Of a DNA stretch of 64,000 nt, positions 21,464 to 57,695 are shown piece by piece (within the stretch, counting starts at the first letter, position 1; every line of letters starts with the position of its first letter). The stretch covers positions 4,030,001 through 4,094,000 of the forward strand of contig OX596336.1 in NCBI GenBank assembly GCA_951394405.1, read 5' to 3'. A program made the translations under genes and the position numbers. Source of the DNA: Coprinellus micaceus. Lineage: Eukaryota; Basidiomycota; Agaricomycetes; Agaricales; Psathyrellaceae. The notes beneath the pieces are model-generated. The model was not told the origin of the DNA, ran no database searches, and saw only the letters and a program-made list of their open reading frames with translations.

Positions 21464-24400
21464 ATGCATCTTTACAACTTGACCCTTCAACCACCTTCTG
21501 CCATCCTCCAGGCCATCGTTGGAAACTTCTCGGGCGCAAGGCAGCAAGAAATCATCGTATCTCATGGCACGAAGCTTGAACTTCTCCGACCGGACCCCCA
21601 GACGGGCAAAGTCTCGACAGTCATCGCGACGGACGTGTTTGGATCCGTGCGCTCGCTCGCAGCGTTCAGATTGACGGGTGGTTCGAAGGGTGAGCAAGTC
21701 GTACGTATCGCCTCGTTTCATCTCTAACTCCTCTCCTCAGACTATGCCATTGTAGGCTCCGACTCCGGACGCGTCGTCATCCTGGACTACGACCCCAAGA
21801 CCAGCACCTTCGTCAAGCTACACCAGGAGACCTTTGGCAAGTCGGGTGCGAGGAGGATCGTGCCGGGGCAGTACCTTGCGACCGACCCCAAGGGCCGTGC
21901 GATGATCATTGGGGCGATGGAAAAGGCCAAGCTGGTGTACATCCTGAACCGCGACGCTGCTGCGAACCTGACGATCTCGTCGCCATTGGAGGCGCACAAG
22001 ACGAACGCAATCATCCACCACATCGTTGGCGTGGATGTGGGCTTCGAGAACCCCATGTTTGCGGCACTGGAGGTGGACTATTCCGAGTCGGATGCGGACC
22101 CAACGGGGGAGGCGTTCAACAGGACGGAAAAGGTGCGTGGACGTACTCTTTACCTAGTGTTGGTGTTGACGTGTTGCAGATGCTGACGTACTACGAACTG
22201 GACTTGGGCCTCAACCACGTCGTCCGCAAATGGAGCGAACCGACCGATCCCCGCGCCAACCTCCTTGTCCAAGTACCCGGAGGCCAGCTAGCTTCGTCTG
22301 ACCGCTACGATGGTCCCTCTGGGGTCCTCGTATGCTGCGAAGACTACATCATCTACCGGCACATGAACGCGCCTCAACATCGAGTCCCCATCCCCCGGCG
22401 CAAGGGTCCCCTAGAGGACCCCAAACGAGGCGTGATCATCACGACCGCCGTCATGCACAAAATGAAAGGCGCGTTCTTCTTCCTCCTCCAAAGCGAAGAC
22501 GGGGACCTGTTCAAGGTGACGATCGAGCACCAAGACCAGGACGTGACGGCGCTCAAGATCAAGTACTTTGACACCGTGCCCGTCGCATCGAGTCTGTGCA
22601 TCCTCAAGTCGGGTTTCCTGTTCGTCGCGAGCGAGTTCGGGAACCATTACCTGTACCAGTTCCTGAAGCTTGGGGATGACGACGAGGAGCCCGAGTTCAC
22701 GTCGACGTCGTACCCTGAATACGGCATGTCCGACCTCCCGCGTGCGTACTTCAAACCTCGGCCCCTAGAGAACTTGGCATTGGCGGACGAACTCCCCTCC
22801 CTGGACCCGATCATCGACTCGAAAGTGCTCAACGTCCTCCCCAACTCTGACACGCCGCAAATCTTCGCCGCGTGCGGACGAGGGGCGCGGAGCACGCTGC
22901 GCACGTTGCGCCACGGGCTGGAGGTGGAGGAGAGCGTGAGCTCGGAGTTGCCGGGTATACCCAATGCGGTGTGGACGGTGAAGAAGACGGAGGCGGATGC
23001 GTACGACAGCTATATCATCTTGTCCTTCGTCAACGGCACCCTCGTTCTGTCCATCGGCGAAACCATCGAGGAAGTGCAGGACACGGGCTTCCTCTCGTCA
23101 TCGCCCACCATCGCGGTGCAGCAGATCGGCAGCGACGCCCTCCTCCAGGTGCACCCACACGGGATCCGGCATGTGTTGTCGGATAGGAGGGTGAATGAGT
23201 GGAAGGTGCCAGAAGGGCGGACGATCGTTCAGGCGACTACGAATAAGAGGCAGGTGGTAGTTGCATTGAGCAGTGCGGAGTTGGTGTATTTCGAGCTGGA
23301 TTTGGATGGCCAATTGAACGAGTATCAGGATAGGAAGGCGATGGGGAGTACGGTATTGGCGTTGAGTATTGGAGAGGCGCCGGAGGGGAGGCAGAGGACG
23401 CCCTATCTAGTATGCTTACTATCTCCAGTGGTTCTTTCTGGTTGACTGATTGCGTCCGTTCTTTTAGGCCGTTGGATGTGAAGACCAGACTGTCCGCATT
23501 ATTTCTCTTGACACAGAAAGCACCCTCGAGACTCTGAGTTTGCAAGCCCTCACTGCCCCCCCATCCTCAATTTGCATCGCCGACATGTTGGATGCGTCTA
23601 TCAACAAGTCGCAACCCACTATGTTCGTGAACATTGGCCTGCAGAATGGTGTCCTCCTCAGGACAGTCCTGGACCCAATGAACGGGCAGCTGACCGATAC
23701 CCGGACTCGGTGCGTGTCTCTTCCGTCCCTTCCGTCCTTCCTACATCCTTCCATCTGGAAGTACCTGTTCCTGACGTTCGGTTTATTGTATAGGTTCCTG
23801 GGAACTCGCCCGATCAAATTGGTTCGTGTGATGGTGCAGAAGAACCCAGCTATCCTTGCTCTATCGTCGAGATCGTGGATCAACTATACGCATCAGAACC
23901 TGATGCACTTCACCCCTCTCATATACGATAACCTCGACTATGCATGGAGCTTCTCGGCGGAGCTGAGTCCTGAGGGGTTGATTGGAATTGCTGGGAACGT
24001 TCTGAGGTAGGTCCCTTTCAATTTTTATCGCAAGGCGTCTTTGAGAGCTGAATGAACGAAATAGGATCTTTGTGATTCCGAAGCTTGGGACGAAGTTGAA
24101 GGAGGATGTTATCCCGCTTGACTATACCCCTCGGAAGTTCGTGACGCACCCCGAAAACCAATACTTCTACCTGGTTGAGGGCGATAACCGGACACTCGGT
24201 GAAGGTGCCGCACAGGAGACAATCCAGAAGCTGGTATGTCGACTTGGTTTCAACCCCACCTTCCCTCCCCCCGTGTTGACACCTTCCCCTCAGAGAAAAG
24301 AAGGCAAACGCGTCGACGACGAAATCATCAACCTCCCTCCAGCTGAATTCGGGCGCCCAAAACAAGCCTCAGGCACCTGGGCCGCCAACGTCCGAATCAT

Positions 24401-35992: not shown

Positions 35993-36640
35993 GGCCCGAG
36001 GGCTGTCCGTCGGCTCCAAAAATACACCAGTGAATAGATACGAGCGCTTTGCAGTACAGATGAGGTGGGACAACATAGACAGGACGGAAGGATACATATG
36101 AGTTGGGACAACATAGACGGAATGGAAGAATACACGAAAACACGGTCGCACAAACATCCGAATCCCGGAGCGTGCATCGAGAATACAATAATAGGCGGTC
36201 AATGTGAATTCTGGATCCATCCATTGCAGTAAAGCCCCCATAACGCAAGTATGAACGTACCGTTCACGGAGCATAGTGCCTGACATGGGCCTTGAAGGTC
36301 CTGTGTTTTTCCTTGAACTACTCTTCCAGGACGTGGACTACGGGAAGTGGTGAGAGGGGGAAGGAAAGGTGGATCAAGGGGTTCGGTGAACATACATCTG
36401 GATGGCCCAGGTTGTTGGTCGTGCGATATTGCACGCTGAAAGTCGTAGGAAAGGGCGTCGCGAGATGCATGGCATTGAGCACATTACACTGAGTATCACT
36501 TGAAGAGTTGAGGCTTACTTGCTGAGTAACATGAGATGTCCTGTGTTGAGCTACACTGACCAATGCAAGTGACGGAACCTGGACTTACTCTCTGAAGAAT
36601 GAACGGGGCGTCTGGCGTTGAGCTACGCTCGCCGGTCTGA
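35560..36640. repeat. segmental duplication, copy A
   Basis: Matches 55.89-56.66 kb in the same orientation, about 20.3 kb apart. The block at 36019-36095 is nearly identical to 56281-56357 (only a few mismatches). It spans the F-box remnant and the terminal exon of the single-codon-exon gene, and leads into the 67-bp array. Confidence 0.75.
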
Positions 36641-39600
36641 AGAACTGGGACTTACTCTCTGAAGAGCAAATGGGGGGTCTGGTGTTGAGCTGTGCTCGTC
36701 GGTCCGAGGAACTGGGACTTACTCTCTGAAGAGCAAACGGGGTCTGGCGTTGAGCGACGCTCGTAGGTTTGAGGAACTGGGACTTACTCGCTGGAGGGCA
36801 AACGGGGCGTCTGGCGTTGAGCTACACTCGTCGGTCTGAGGAACTGGGACTTACTTCCTGGAGGGCAAACCAGGCGTCTGGCATTGAGCTGCGCTCGTCG
36901 GTCTGAGGAACTGGGACTTACGAACTGGAGGGCAAACGGGGCGTCTGGCGTTGAGCTGCGCTCGTCGGTCTGAGGAACTGGGACTTACTTCCTGGAGGGC
37001 AAACCAGGCGTCTGGCATTGAGCTGCGCTCGTCGGTCTGAGGAACTGGGACTTACGAACTGGAGGGCAAACGGGGCGTCTGGCGTTGAGCTGCGCTCGTC
37101 GGTCTGAGGAACTGGGACTTACTTCCTGGAGGGCAAACCAGGCGTCTGGCATTGAGCTGCGCTCGTCGGTCTGAGGAACTGGGACTTACGAACTGGAGGG
37201 CAAACGGGGCGTCTGGCGTTGAGCTACACTCGTCGGTCTGAGGAACTGGGACTTACGTCCTGGAGGGCAAACCAGGTGTCTGGCATTGAGCTGCGCTCGT
37301 CGGTCTGAGGAACTGGGACTTACTTCCTGGAGGGCAAACCAGGCGTCTGGCATTGAGCTGCGCTCGTCGGTCTGAGGAACTGGGACTTACCAACTGGAGG
37401 GCAAACGGGGCGTCTGGCGTTGAGCTACACTCGTCGGTCTGAGGAACTGGGACTTACCAACTGGAGGGCAAACAGGGCGTCTGGCGTTGAGCTACACTCG
37501 TCGGTCTGAGGAACTGGGACTTACTTCCTGGAGGGCAAACAGGGCGTCTGGCTTTGAGCGATGCTTGTCGGTCTGACGAACTGGGACTTACCCTCTGAGA
37601 GGCAAACGGGGTGTCTGGAGTTGAGCTGCGCTCGTCGGTCTGAGGAACTGGGACTTACTTCCTGGAGGGCAAACCAGGCGTCTGGCATTGAGCTGCGCTC
37701 GTCAGTCTGAGGAACTGGGACTTACGAACTGGAGGGCAAACGGGGTGTCTGGCTTTGAGCTACACTCGTCGGTCTGAGGAACTGGGACTTGCCAACTGCA
37801 GGGCAAACGGGGCGTCTGGCGTTGAGCTACGCTCGTCGGTCTGATGAACTGGGACTTACTTCCTGGAGGGCAAACCAGGCATCTGGCATTGAGCTGCGCT
37901 CGTCGGTCTGAGGAACTGGGACTTACTCGCTGGAGGGCAAACGGGGCGTCTGGCGTTGAGCTACACTCGTCGGTCTGAGGAACTGGGACTTACCAACTGG
38001 AGGGCAAACGGGGCGTCTGGCGTTGAGCTACACTCGTCGGTCTGAGGAACTGGGACTTACCAACTGGAGGGCAAACGGGGTGTCTGGCTTTGAGCTACAC
38101 TCGTCGGTCTGAGCAACTGGGACTTACGAACTGGAGGGCAAACAGGGCGTCTGGCGTTGAGCTACGCTCGTCGATCTGATGAACTGGGACTTACGATCTG
38201 AAAGGCACACAGGGCGTCTGGCGTTGAGCTACACTCGTCGGTCTGAGGAACTGGGACTTACTTCCTGGAGGGCAAACCAGGCATCTGGCATTGAGCTGCA
38301 CTCGTCGGTCTGAGGAACTGGGACTTACTCGCTGGAGGGCAAACGGGGCGTCTGGCGTTGAGCTACACTCGTCGGTCTGAGGAACTGGGACTTACCAACT
38401 GGAGGGCAAACGGGGCGTCTGGCGTTGAGCTACACTCGTCGGTCTGAGGAACTGGGACTCACTTTCTGGAGGGCAAACAGGGCGTCTGGCGTTGAGCTAC
38501 ACTCGTCGGTCTGAGGAACTGGGACTTACTTCCTGGAGGGCAAACCAGGCGTCTGGCATTGAGCTGCGCTCGTCGGTCTGAGGAACTGGGACTTACGAAC
38601 TGGAGGGCAAACGGGGCGTCTGGCGTCGAGCTACGCTCGTCGGTCTGATGAACTGGGACTTACTTGCTGGAGGGCAAACGGGGCGTCTGGCTTTGAGCGA
38701 TGCTTGTCAGTCTGACGAACTGGGACTTACCCTCTGAGAGGCAAACGGGGTGTCTGGAGTTGAGCTGCGCTCGTCGGTCTGAGGAACTGGGACTTACTCG
38801 CTGGAGGGCAAACGGGGCGTCTGGCTTTGAGCGATGCTTGTCGGTCTGACGAACTGGGACTTACCCTCTGAGAGGCAAACGGGGTGTCTGGAGTTGAGCT
38901 GCGCTCGTCGGTCTGAGGAACTGGGACTTACTTGCTGGAGGGCAAACGGGGTGTCTGGCTTTGAGCTACACTCGTCGGTCTGAGGGACTTGGACTTACGG
39001 CCTGAAGGGCAAACAGGGCGTCTAGCGTTGAGCTACGCTCATCGGTCTGAGGAACTGGGACTTACTTCCTGGAGGGCAAACCAGGCGTCTGGCATTGAGC
39101 TGCGCTCGTCGGTCTGAGGAACTGGGACTTACCAACTGGAGGGCAAACGGGGCGTCTGGCGTTGAGCTACACTCGTCGGTCTGAGGAACTGGGACTCACG
39201 TTCTGGAGGGCAAACGGGGTGTCTGGCTTTGAGCTACACTCGTCGGTCTGAGCAACTGGGACTTACGAACTGGAGGGCAAACAGGGCGTCTGGCGTTGAG
39301 CTACACTCGTCGGTCTGAGGAACTGGGACTCACGTTCTGGAGGGCAAACGGGGTGTCTGGCTTTGAGCTACACTCGTCGGTCTGAGCAACTGGGACTTAC
39401 GAACTGGAGGGCAAACAGGGCGTCTGGCGTTGAGCTACGCTCGTCGATCTGATGAACTGGGACTTACGATCTGAAAGGCACACAGGGCGTCTGGCGTTGA
39501 GCTATGCTTGCCGGTCTGATGAACCGGGACTTACTGGCTGGAGGGCAAACGGGGCATCTGGTGTTCAAATAGGCTCTCCGGACTGACGAACTGGGACTTA

Positions 39601-40668
39601 CCATCTGAAAGGCACACAGGGCGTCAGGGATTGAGCTACGCTCGTCGGTCTGACGAACTGGGACTTACTTCCTGGAGGGCAAACCGGGCATATAACGTTA
39701 AACACCCACTGCTTGGAAAGGTTTCCCACTCACTGGCTAAAGGCAAAGCATGTCTCGTGTCAGTCAGAAGACACCACTTACCGAAATGTCAACCTACAGC
39801 CTGAAGGAGATACGGGTGAGGAAACATCATCATTTGGAGAAAACTGGTCTAGTGTGCTTCACTCACCATCTGGATGATGGTCAGTGTGTTGCCCCAATTT
39901 TCCCTCAGGACAGAGACCAAGTACTCACCACCTCGATCTTGCGTGTGTGGCGAAAGAATGCTTCGTCATTGTCACCATTCGGGCTCGCCAGTTGGAACTT
40001 CCCCCTCCTAATCGATGAGGTGAAACGGGTATTACACCTTCGACTGAATCTCCGTGAGCATGGAATAGCTATGGTATATACACATGCAGCAAACAACGCA
40101 CCACACCTGCCACCCTTCGTCCTCAACAGTCCCGAGCTTTGTCTTCCCACATTTTGGGCACTTTTTTCTTAGTTCTACCCCGAACGCCTGTTCAATCAGC
40201 ATAGCCATCACCAAATGCTCAGGTTTCCCGACAATACTTATCCAGGTCTCGGGGGTAACGTCTGTTCCACCCTCCGCTCCTCCTGCCCGAGCGATGCAGT
40301 AACGCCCCTCTGTCACATGGCGTTCCCCAACCTTGTCCCTGAAATGAGTAGCAAGCGTCTTATGCAAGTCCTGCCGCATGGGTGTCAGGGGCCAGTTCCA
40401 GGCGTAAATGCATTTGCAGTGAACTCACGTCGTAGGTTGAGACGATATCCCAAGGGAGGGTGAAGGTCGACCCCAGTGCATCAGTTATGGTCAATGCATT
40501 GGCGCTGGTGTAGCCCGGGCGGGGTGGAAGGGATGCGAGCGTGGCTTTAACTTTAGCCCATATTTCCTCCTGAATTCTTCGTACTGACATGCCGATTAGA
40601 TGCCATCTCTTTGACCATTTTAACCCGAGGGGTAAACGTACATTCCTCAGAGTCGATACCGTGCACAA
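36199..40668 (-). CDS. ubiquitin-like-domain protein with a tail encoded by single-codon exons (proposed gene)
   Basis: Function unknown; model partly speculative. Minus-strand exons up to 40429 and 40370..40107 encode ALTITDALGSTFTLPWDIV, then DLHKTLATHFRDKVGERHV and KKCPKCGKTKLG. I read this as the fungal ubiquitin-like fold (ULD_2-like) plus half a zinc ribbon. After GWQ, splice signals give a 2-codon exon (40043..40038), a 3-codon exon (39937..39929), then 51 exons of one codon each: ATG 39869..39867, GCT 39800..39798, CCA 39736..39734, 47 in the 67-bp array (39671 down to 36589), and CAA 36521..36519. A last exon from 36435 encodes SHDQQPGPSRCMFTEP, with a stop at 36199-36201. All joins are phase 0 and no triplet is a stop. 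The 5' end above 40668 is unresolved. Confidence 0.45.
36589..39671 (-). repeat. 67-bp tandem repeat array (47 triplets) with intron-like units
   Basis: About 47 units, period 67 bp (a few 65-68). On the minus strand the consensus unit is 64 nt from GTAAGTCCCAG to CCCTCCAG, followed by a variable 3-nt triplet. The donor is GTAAGT in nearly all units, GTGAGT in three and GCAAGT in one; all are usable 5' splice sites. The last intron bases are always CAG, although the preceding bases vary (CTCCAG, TTTCAG, TCTCAG, CTGCAG, CTTCAG). A GCTCAA word about 30 nt before the end is the best branch-point candidate. Triplets in the array: GAA 11, TTC 8, TTG 7, CGA 4, AGA 3, AGG 3, ATC, CAA and AAC 2 each, and GAC, AAA, GCC, CCA and ATG once. 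No ORF longer than 60 codons exists across the array. Confidence 0.9.
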
Positions 40669-41681
40669 TCATATCTCTCCCAATGTTCGTAACGTCCAAA
40701 CGGCCGACGGAAGTATTGGCGCTGTTGCAGAGGAGTTGCACCCCGGTCTGCTCCGTGCTGGTCGACCGAATCGCGGCTGAAGATCATATTAAACGTCGAG
40801 ATCCGGGGTTCAGAGGTCAGTTCGACCAGACTACTCACCCGTTCTCGAGTATGGATGCCAGCGGTGTGATGTGGAGGGCATTTGAACTCTTCCGCGACCC
40901 TGCATGTCTGAAGCGCGACTCATGCCTGTTGCGGTGCGATATAACCTGGGCTCGAGGAGGCTTTATATCGTGTCGCTGGTTTATGTTGAGTGGGTGGGAG
41001 AGTTCAAGAAGTGTTCTAGGGAGACACACCTACGTGGGTGCGAATATTGCGCTCCCAAACGGCCGAGGTGGGGGTTGCGATATCTGACCCGACGTCTTTC
41101 GGAATCCTCTGCGACTCAGAATCTTGGTTGAACCCTGGATAGGTCCTCGGTTGAGTCTTGTCGGTGAGCAGAGTCGGCGTCGCTGTGCGATGGAAGAGCT
41201 CCCAGGGTACAGCCCTCAGTGGGGTGGGTAAGAGTACAAATGTATGGCTTGCGGCTTCGTTAACTGTAGGTGAAGGCATGAGGCTTCCTCGTGTGCGGAA
41301 ACGTGACCTACCGACCGATGTCCGCAAGGCTGAGTGCAGCCAAGTGGCATTGCACGATGACAGAATGTAATTAATACGATTGCAGGCTTGGTCGAGCCGC
41401 CGCCTGTAATCCAGGCACTGCTATGCCCTTGGGAGCATCTCTTCCTCCCAGCGAAGAAGTTGGGAGAACCGAAGCGAGGGTGGTCAAGCCGTTCACAAGG
41501 GACGCGTTTTCGGAGAGGGACCAAATGTTAGATATTCTGGTTGGTCGGGGTAGGAGGAAGAGGCAGGGCGCCAGGTCCGAACGTGACCCAGAGCCGGCAT
41601 ATGATCCGCTTTCCGGAACCCTCCCGATGTGGCAGCCTGCCCCGATTCGAACTTTGCCGTCAACCACCAAGATCGACCAAC
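40669..41681. other. unresolved stretch upstream of the ubiquitin-like gene
   Basis: Probably contains the 5' exons of the minus-strand ubiquitin-like gene, but several short minus ORFs (40553-41029) cannot be joined unambiguously. No plus-strand gene recognised. Confidence 0.35.
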
Positions 41682-56240: not shown

Positions 56241-56660
56241 ACTGTTGAGTCGGACAGGTTTTGAGGCCTGAGACCTGCTCCAAAAATACACCAGTGAATA
56301 GATACGAGCGCTTTGCAGTACATATGAGGTGGGACAACATGGACAGGACGGAAGGATACGGATGAGTCGGGACAACAGAGGCAGAATAGAAGAATACATG
56401 AAAACACGGTTGCACAAACATCTGAATCCGAGGGTGTACATAGAGGGGCCGTCAATGTAAACTCTGGATCTGTTTCAATAAAGCCCTTGTGAAGGGAGTA
56501 TAAACATACTGATTCCGGGACATGGGTCTTGAAGGTCCTGTGCCTTTCCTTGAACTAGTCTTCCAGGACTTGGACTACGGGAAGTGGTGAGAGGGTGAGG
56601 GGAAGCATTAAGGGCTTGGTGAACATACATTTGGATGGCCCAGGTTGTTGGTCATCGGGC
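55888..56660. repeat. segmental duplication, copy B
   Basis: Partner of 35.56-36.64 kb. It carries the F-box remnant B and a terminal exon encoding DQQPGPSKCMFTKPL, and is followed by a six-triplet version of the 67-bp repeat. Confidence 0.75.
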
Positions 56661-57695
56661 TGAAAGGGGTGCCAGGGAGGGGTATGCGGGACGTTTAGCA
56701 TTGCGCGTGGGACACTATGTATCCCTTGAAGAGTTGGGCTTGCCCACTAAAGGGTACACAGGGCATCTGGCGTTGAGCTACGCTTGCCGGGTTGAGGAAC
56801 TTGGACTTACGGGCTGGAGTGCAAGCGGGGCGTCTGGCGTTGAGTGACGCTAGTCGGTTTGCAGAACTTGGACTTACGGGCTGGAGGGGAAATGGGGTGG
56901 CAAACACGGCGCCTGGCGTTGAGTGATGCTCGTCGATTGCAGAACTTTCACTTACGTACTAAACCGTACACGGGGTATCTGGCGTTAAGTGACGCTCGTT
57001 GGTTTGCAGAACTTGGACTTACTTGCTGGAGGGCAAACGGGGCGTCTGGCGTTGAGCTACGCTCGCCGGTTTGAGGAACTGGGACTTACGTCCTAGAGGG
57101 CAAACGGGCATCAGGAAAATCGGGGCCAGGGGACATTCCCAGGAAGGTCTGATCATCGCCAGTAATATAGACACCCGTTATCTGATAGTGACCTGACTTG
57201 ATCGGGGCTTGTCAATGAATGGTCAAGGGTCTCAGGGCAGGCACCAACGGTGAGATGTAAAAGAATTTGAGATGCGCAGCGCATGGTAGTCAGACCATGC
57301 TCAGCAGAATCCCTGCCTGATGTGACACTCACAATATCCTGTAATACGTCATCATAGGGCACCGTTATGGCAGAGTTTCGGAAATCTCTCCCAGAAATGG
57401 ATAGGTAGAGGCGCAACTCACCATTGATGGAATAAATCCATAACACTGAGCGGACGCTGGCCATGAAATTCTCAGTGCGGTAACTGGCTTGGGTGGTGCC
57501 TCTTAGGGGTGGCCATTTTGCGAAGCTCTGGCTGAGTTGATCGAAACCCTCCCAGAAATGGGTGGGAGGGGAGGCTGATAACAGCATGGCCAGGATCAAG
57601 TCAGTGTTCTTGAGGATGCGCACGGCTGATCCAAGTTCATAGTAGGGATAGAGGAGAAGGGTGATGGTAATATTCCGCTCCAAAACCCAACACAC
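56555..57695 (-). CDS. second proposed gene with single-codon exons (short form)
   Basis: Function unknown, model partial. The minus-strand ORF from ATG 57695 encodes ELGSAVRILKNTDLILAMLL, then FWEGFDQLSQSFAKWPPL, with no family recognised. Splice signals follow, including a possible 2-codon exon GATATT before GTGAGT at about 57330. Then six single-codon exons: GAC 57092..57090, CAA 57025..57023, TAC 56958..56956, CCC 56880..56878, CCC 56813..56811, TGG 56746..56744. The terminal exon 56659..56555 (PDDQQPGPSKCMFTKPL, stop TAG) is homologous to that of the 36-40 kb gene. The exons between about 57330 and 57092 are not resolved. The ATG is only about 100 bp beyond the transposase stop. Confidence 0.35.
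56744..57092 (-). repeat. short diverged 67-bp repeat array (six triplets)
   Basis: Same unit design as the 36.6-39.7 kb array but more diverged: minus-strand donors GTAAGT (five) and GCAAGC (one), acceptors CTCTAG, CTCCAG or TTTTAG, spacing 65-78 bp. Order on the minus strand: GAC, CAA, TAC, CCC, CCC, TGG. Confidence 0.75.

Follow-up and report, generated by a model that had tools for sequence, protein, structure and literature searches.

A predicted array of 51 one-codon exons in a ubiquitin-like/zinc-ribbon gene of Coprinellus micaceus

On the minus strand of the 64,000-nucleotide (nt) stretch of Coprinellus micaceus DNA analysed here (contig OX596336.1; the whole stretch is called the window, and positions are numbered within it) lies a gene whose predicted coding sequence runs from an ATG at 40923 to a TAG at 36318. 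As modelled, the gene has 58 exons and 57 introns, and its spliced coding sequence of 972 nt encodes 323 amino acids without an internal stop, which amounts to 58.6 introns per kilobase (kb) of coding sequence. Five exons of normal size lie upstream and two exons downstream of an array, termed W1 (36519..39869), in which the splice-motif pattern and the gene model place 51 exons of three bases each, with 50 introns of 61-67 nt between them. From the anatomy of the array, the codon phase at both of its ends, the conservation of its splice signals and the comparison with its paralogs, we consider it likely that W1 comprises 51 one-codon exons, which phase-0 splicing is predicted to connect into the C-terminal tail of a protein with a ubiquitin-like domain and a zinc ribbon.

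Read along the minus strand, W1 extends from a first triplet at 39869-39867 to a last one at 36521-36519, boundaries identical to the base with those of the interval of single-codon exons proposed in a first-pass annotation of the window. The acceptors preceding the 51 triplets are CAG in 50 cases and TAG in one, and the donors following them are GTAAGT (43), GTGAGT (5), GTAGGT, GCAAGT and GTAAGC (one each). The core of the array consists of 47 units with a period of 67 base pairs (bp), each a 64-nt intron plus one codon; the core contains 14 distinct triplets, donors of the forms GTAAGT (43), GTGAGT (3) and GCAAGT (1), and CAG acceptors throughout (47 of 47). The first-pass description of the unit, of its three donor forms, of its invariant acceptor and of its 14 spacer values thus holds for the core, while the remaining units supply the donor forms GTAGGT and GTAAGC and the single TAG acceptor. 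At both ends of the array the same splice grammar is carried on by introns unrelated in sequence, as that annotation had also observed. Tandem Repeats Finder reports a period of 67, 46.1 copies and 87% matches; single units and pairs of units have been duplicated locally, and blocks such as GAA-TTC-GAA-TTC recur. Left unspliced, the array contains 28-32 stops in each frame, and among its 50 introns, if retained, 49 would shift the frame and 30 would introduce an in-frame stop.

The pattern is far more frequent than chance would provide. The window holds 54 instances of the motif YAG-NNN-GTRAGT, where shuffled sequence would give 1.66 (none of 100 shuffles reached 54), and the same motif with a spacer of four or two bases occurs twice each, at chance level. 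Across the genome (50.3 megabases), three successive donors with introns (54-83 nt allowed) and 3-nt exons were matched 84 times. Four arrays on a single contig (C3) account for 81 of these matches, and a subtelomeric gene family for the other three; in the same genome, neither the pattern reversed nor a version with 4-nt exons gave a match.

The exons leading into the array encode a recognizable protein. Predicted exon 1 (40839..40923) has an N-terminus that resembles, when compared by eye, that of the homolog P0010 (LLCNSSNFS...GDMIVH); it is followed by exon 2 (40642..40776), by exon 3 (40429..40583), in which a ULD_2 ubiquitin-like domain begins, and by exon 4 (40102..40370), which carries the remainder of that domain and the first CxxC of a zinc ribbon. 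The ULD_2 match (PF22893) in the 323-residue product scores 62.6 bits against a gathering cutoff of 24.5, and no other domain was found in the product at E ≤ 0.1, NACHT and ankyrin included. After the ULD_2 domain the zinc ribbon reads CPKC...CRRC; with a ribbon CPKCG...GWxVCRRCNTR and an FRH-type motif behind the domain, the product belongs with the Psathyrellaceae group of ULD_2 proteins. The ribbon's second half appears only once the intron with the donor GTGCGT, starting at 40101, is removed. The upstream exon had previously been ended at 40107; in the present model it ends at 40102, and an additional exon, exon 5 (39929..40043, 115 nt), sits between it and the array, carrying the second CxxC (CRRC) and the sequence FRHTRKIEV. 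A donor at 40107 was rejected, since reading by hand shows that it brings a stop codon into frame in the exon that follows; the donor at 40101 yields WQVCRRC, as in the C. micaceus protein P0003.

Proteins from other species establish the codon phase in which the array is entered. Homologs numbered 29, the eight given by a first search all being recovered in a second one that scored the 7995 candidates sharing most words; those named come from Coprinellus, Ephemerocybe and Candolleomyces (all Psathyrellaceae), and from Coprinopsis and Agrocybe. The motif C[RL]RC is present in 15 of the 29, among them P0003, with which the junction W[QR]VCRRCNTR (WQV-CRRC here) agrees; an FRH-type motif is present in 16, and both motifs in 14. 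In the window FRHTRKIEV terminates exactly at the first donor of the array, and the phase follows from this. The 12 homologs with neither the C[RL]RC nor the FRH-type motif end, are cut, or diverge at the ribbon, and two proteins, P0028 and P0029, have the ribbon, then an unrelated stretch and then RRCNTRF, resembling unremoved introns.

The phase leaving the array agrees with three genomic copies of the exit exon. The array opens in phase 0 into exon 57 (36396..36435), which encodes RAISHDQQPGPSR, and the exit peptide continues in the same phase across one more intron into the last exon (36318..36337, FHVLEE and the stop TAG), reading QQPGPSRFHVLEE-stop. The corresponding exit peptides of two further arrays described below, W2 and L037, read QQPGPSKFQVLED-stop and QQPGPSRFQVLED-stop, such that QQPGPS[RK]F[HQ]VLE[DE]-stop stands in phase 0 in all three copies. 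These two short exons, 36435-36396 and 36337-36318, replace the single downstream exon (36199-36435) of the first-pass annotation. Two of the 29 homologs, the Ephemerocybe angulata proteins P0015 and P0020, in which the FRH motif is present, end in SRFEELAD and SRFEELDG, a weak but fitting match to the exit. Just downstream of the gene lies a 38-bp repeat (36055-36134), and a similar sequence follows W2, in what appears to be the 3' untranslated region.

The four arrays on contig C3 together span about 100 kb, and are referred to as W1, W2, L036 and L037; counted by splice motifs, they contain 51, 6, 24 and about 22 one-codon units, respectively. W2 (56744..57092, minus strand) is truncated at its 5' end and consists of the units GAC CAA TAC CCC CCC TGG, with one intron of 75 nt, followed by exit exons (56555..56659, minus strand) at 56629-56659 and 56555-56574. 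L036 has a complete ULD part upstream of its 24 units (a raw pattern count of 25 includes the end of exon 5), and its exit exon was not found. L037, whose 5' end differs, has 22 usable one-codon units and two damaged ones; one of these has the donor GTAGAT and the other an acceptor changed to CAC, so that on its sequence the latter could only be skipped, in frame. Its one-codon series is preceded by two 9-nt exons in the same phase, ATGGCCCAG (L037:3293-3301) and AAACTTGAA (L037:3359-3367), whose appearance suggests intron loss or a fusion of units at this place. Two further ULD copies, L038 and L039, are without an array. The ratio of nonsynonymous to synonymous substitution (dN/dS) is 0.51 between W1 and L036 over exons 1-5, and, over the exons retained by L038, 0.40 between W1 and L038 and 0.45 between L036 and L038.

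L037 (up to 3204), L038 (up to 2912) and L039 (up to 2815) also share at least 1405 identical bases ending at one common point, where this segment abuts differing portions of the ULD/array gene; L038 and L039 are identical across at least 7.9 kb. This suggests that the shared segment was recently mobile or duplicated.

In the three larger arrays the splice signals are better conserved than the rest of the intron. Among the aligned introns of W1 (46 of 50), conservation is 0.99 at the donor, 0.99 at the sequence CTCAA and 1.00 at the acceptor against 0.92 in the remaining columns (p=0.002); in L036 (22 of 24) the values are 0.99, 0.98 and 0.92 against 0.87 (p=7e-5), and in L037 (19 of 20) 0.98, 0.96 and 0.95 against 0.79 (p=2e-6). 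The introns excluded were edge introns unrelated in sequence and a gap in L037 over the two damaged units. CTCAA is a putative branch site, assigned by eye from the sequence, with 26 nt from it to the end of the acceptor. Such preferential keeping of splice signals is not what a decoy or a satellite would be predicted to display. Stop codons are absent from the 103 triplets considered, against 7.0 expected from the triplets' own base composition (not in this set are the L037 triplet whose acceptor is dead and the pair of 9-nt exons).

These observations bear on the possibility that the whole array is removed as one intron of 3,493 nt, running from the exon 5 donor to the exon 57 acceptor, and that the triplets are relics or decoys outside the messenger RNA (mRNA). 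The resulting junction would likewise keep the frame, since what is left out amounts to 51 complete codons, and in P0015 the sequences FRHVRK and SRFEELAD are separated by just a short stretch. Under such splicing, decay of the signals inside the array would go unopposed, but in each of the three larger arrays these donors, branch sites and acceptors are more conserved than the rest of the intron; the lack of stop triplets also speaks against such splicing (with the caveat on independence given below), and an intron of 3,493 nt would be alone in a gene whose seven introns outside the array measure 58-83 nt. We therefore regard removal as a single intron as unlikely, and the one-codon exons proposed for this interval by the first-pass annotation (about 51, with phase-0 introns) as the better account: the entry phase set by the homologs, the exit phase in three genomic copies, the signals kept in three arrays that have diverged to different degrees and the absence of stop triplets all point to them.

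The exon columns, by contrast with the signals around them, are the most variable of the unit, the commonest base in each column accounting for no more than 29-48% of units. When unit types are connected by minimum spanning trees (46 of 51 units for W1), changes per site are 3.5 times as frequent in the exon columns as in the flanks in W1, 2.5 times in L036 and 3.0 times in L037 (7.5, 3.2 and 3.0, respectively, under another weighting), and six of the 53 tree edges that carry an exon change are synonymous. This hints that the triplet changes are diversifying, an estimate behind which stand few independent events.

A further possibility is that the apparent introns and exons are mimicry by a 67-bp minisatellite of the ordinary kind, the gene ending earlier, for example at a TAA in a retained intron 4. 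W1 is truly a tandem repeat with local one- and two-unit duplications, and in three copies reading through intron 4 meets no stop before a shared TAA. A minisatellite would not account, however, for the same grammar persisting in the unrelated introns at both array ends, for intron lengths that vary over all arrays from 57 to 75 nt while the spacers of the contiguous arrays hold 3 nt (the two 9-nt exons of L037 excepted), or for the concentration of variation in the three spacer bases; and homologs run past intron 4 into CRRC and FRH (both motifs in 14 of 29), in the same frame by which the array is entered. The idea that the ULD gene stops short of the array, at the TAA (40032-40034), was dropped as the principal interpretation in view of the motif counts among the 29 homologs, and we judge the minisatellite explanation to be very improbable.

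We see still less reason to favour construction of the array by introner elements, inserted between the codons of an older exon in place of tandem duplication. Near-identical introns between differing exon bases do resemble the introner families, which are reported as near-identical introns spread through many genes (PMC9860276). As described in the excerpts of that source, introners are dispersed in unrelated genes, whereas a 201-bp piece of the array used as a query gave at least 40 matches, 40 of 40 lying inside the four arrays on one contig; nor would insertion account for a spacing of exactly one codon, or for the recurrence of blocks of units.

Several points weigh against one-codon exons in W1. 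The presence of the triplets in mature mRNA is a prediction from genomic sequence, and W1 is the only complete copy seen. The units were found by a pattern that itself requires splice motifs and a 3-nt spacer; the spacing is nevertheless gapless, the pattern having missed no units in W1, W2 and L036 and two in L037. The 103 triplets are not independent, because the units share ancestry, and among the 36 distinct triplets only 1.4 stops would be expected (P=0.23). When intron 4 is retained, none of W1, L036 and L038 has a stop in frame before the common TAA ahead of the array, the retained stretch encodes cysteines of its own, and a shorter product without the array may be made in this way as well. 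The order of residues in the tail is not amphipathic above shuffles (the maximum observed at 100 degrees is attained by 1902 of 2000 shuffles). A query with the last 129 residues gave no protein match at E ≤ 10 among 62 candidates, which says little either way, because the same search missed ribbon-bearing members of the family such as P0010.

Granting the one-codon exons, we infer the following from the gene model as to how the array arose and is spliced. The 67-bp unit most likely multiplied by tandem duplication and unequal crossing-over, and each unit gained would add a single residue to the protein and leave the reading frame intact. The introns are probably removed one after another from 5' to 3', by intron definition, such that the upstream exon grows with every step; a 3-nt exon would then never need to be recognized as an exon, because the upstream exon is long once the first intron has been removed. 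The near-perfect GTAAGT donors plausibly offset the variable exon bases that otherwise pair with U1. Since every triplet is a whole codon in one phase, skipping any number of units would keep the frame, and alternative inclusion of units would thus allow one gene to yield tails that differ in length and sequence.

Outside these arrays, a subtelomeric C2H2-like gene (L041:1486-2120; G000:C1 near 5547932) has a chain of phase-0 micro-exons of 15, 3, 3, 6 and 12 nt, set by eye from splice motifs; it reads MSAAT-N-V-PD-AEEV-GPICPTCDHIF... and is open into the next exons. Pattern matches of this kind also occur at C3:8386 and C6:808. Elsewhere in the window, 22171-23445 is part of a gene of the RSE1/DDB1/CPSF1 beta-propeller type, an ordinary neighbour.

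Schistosome micro-exon genes, from an animal parasite, contain short symmetric exons of several codons each, arranged in chains; W1 resembles them in its chained short symmetric exons. The exons of the aphid bicycle genes are likewise longer than one codon. According to the excerpts cited, bicycle genes have many small internal exons, nearly all in one phase, and encode fast-evolving proteins, and a megacycle gene has more than 100 micro-exons (PMC9168663); these internal exons start in phase 2 and belong to insect effectors, while the 51 micro-exons of W1 are all in phase 0 in the model. Single micro-exons of 1-3 nt are described in plant APC11 and VPS55, the conserved donors adjoining the 1-nt exons of VPS55 being GTRAGT (PMC8831610), and a single micro-exon within this class is described in Drosophila homothorax (PMC7392893). 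These genes indicate that exons of 1-3 nt get spliced, with one per gene as opposed to tens in a row in W1, and the conserved GTRAGT donors of VPS55 parallel the strong donors of W1. Very small coding exons in fungi include two 3-nt exons in lipS of Dactylellina haptotyla (PMC5639578) and exons as short as 6 bp in P450 genes of Phanerochaete chrysosporium (PMC1184071), sources whose excerpts make no mention of an array.

The closest counterpart is found in the truffle genus Tuber, which belongs to the ascomycetes. The nank (NACHT-ankyrin) genes of Tuber melanosporum are reported to contain tens of codon-sized (3-bp) microexons that are alternatively spliced (PMC3689799, PMC4986451 and PMC10197012, citing Iotti et al. 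2012), contrary to the earlier statement that no gene of such a design had been described. As far as the cited excerpts go, both are fungal gene families with many 3-bp exons per gene and with expanded, diversifying paralogs; the nank genes encode NLR-type proteins and their alternative splicing is reported, whereas the W1 gene encodes a basidiomycete ULD/zinc-ribbon protein and its micro-exons are predicted from genomic sequence. Sharing the structure of many 3-bp exons, the W1 product nonetheless falls outside the nank family proper, as NACHT and ankyrin were not found in it at the threshold given above. The kind of gene is therefore already known, and W1 represents it in another phylum, in another protein family and in a clean tandem array (the truffle genes being compared by description only).

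Together with the truffle report, as excerpted, this suggests that codon-sized exons came to form arrays in two phyla of fungi, each time in another family of genes. It is conceivable, although we put it forward only tentatively, that such an array is a splicing-based generator of diversity, a minisatellite with an intron and one codon as its unit, in which the number of units in the DNA and their free in-frame choice would give open-ended tails, evolved independently in basidiomycetes and truffles for recognition proteins; diversification of the tail would then be its function, and the ULD_2 array protein might have a role in recognition. If W1 is spliced as predicted, it would offer an extreme case, set up by nature, of the spliceosome coping with exons below the size at which an exon can be recognized, in a repeat that can extend a protein residue by residue with the frame intact. 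Plant micro-exons are described as easily overlooked by annotation (PMC8831610, as excerpted), and more genes with codon-sized exons may exist, because annotation easily misses them.

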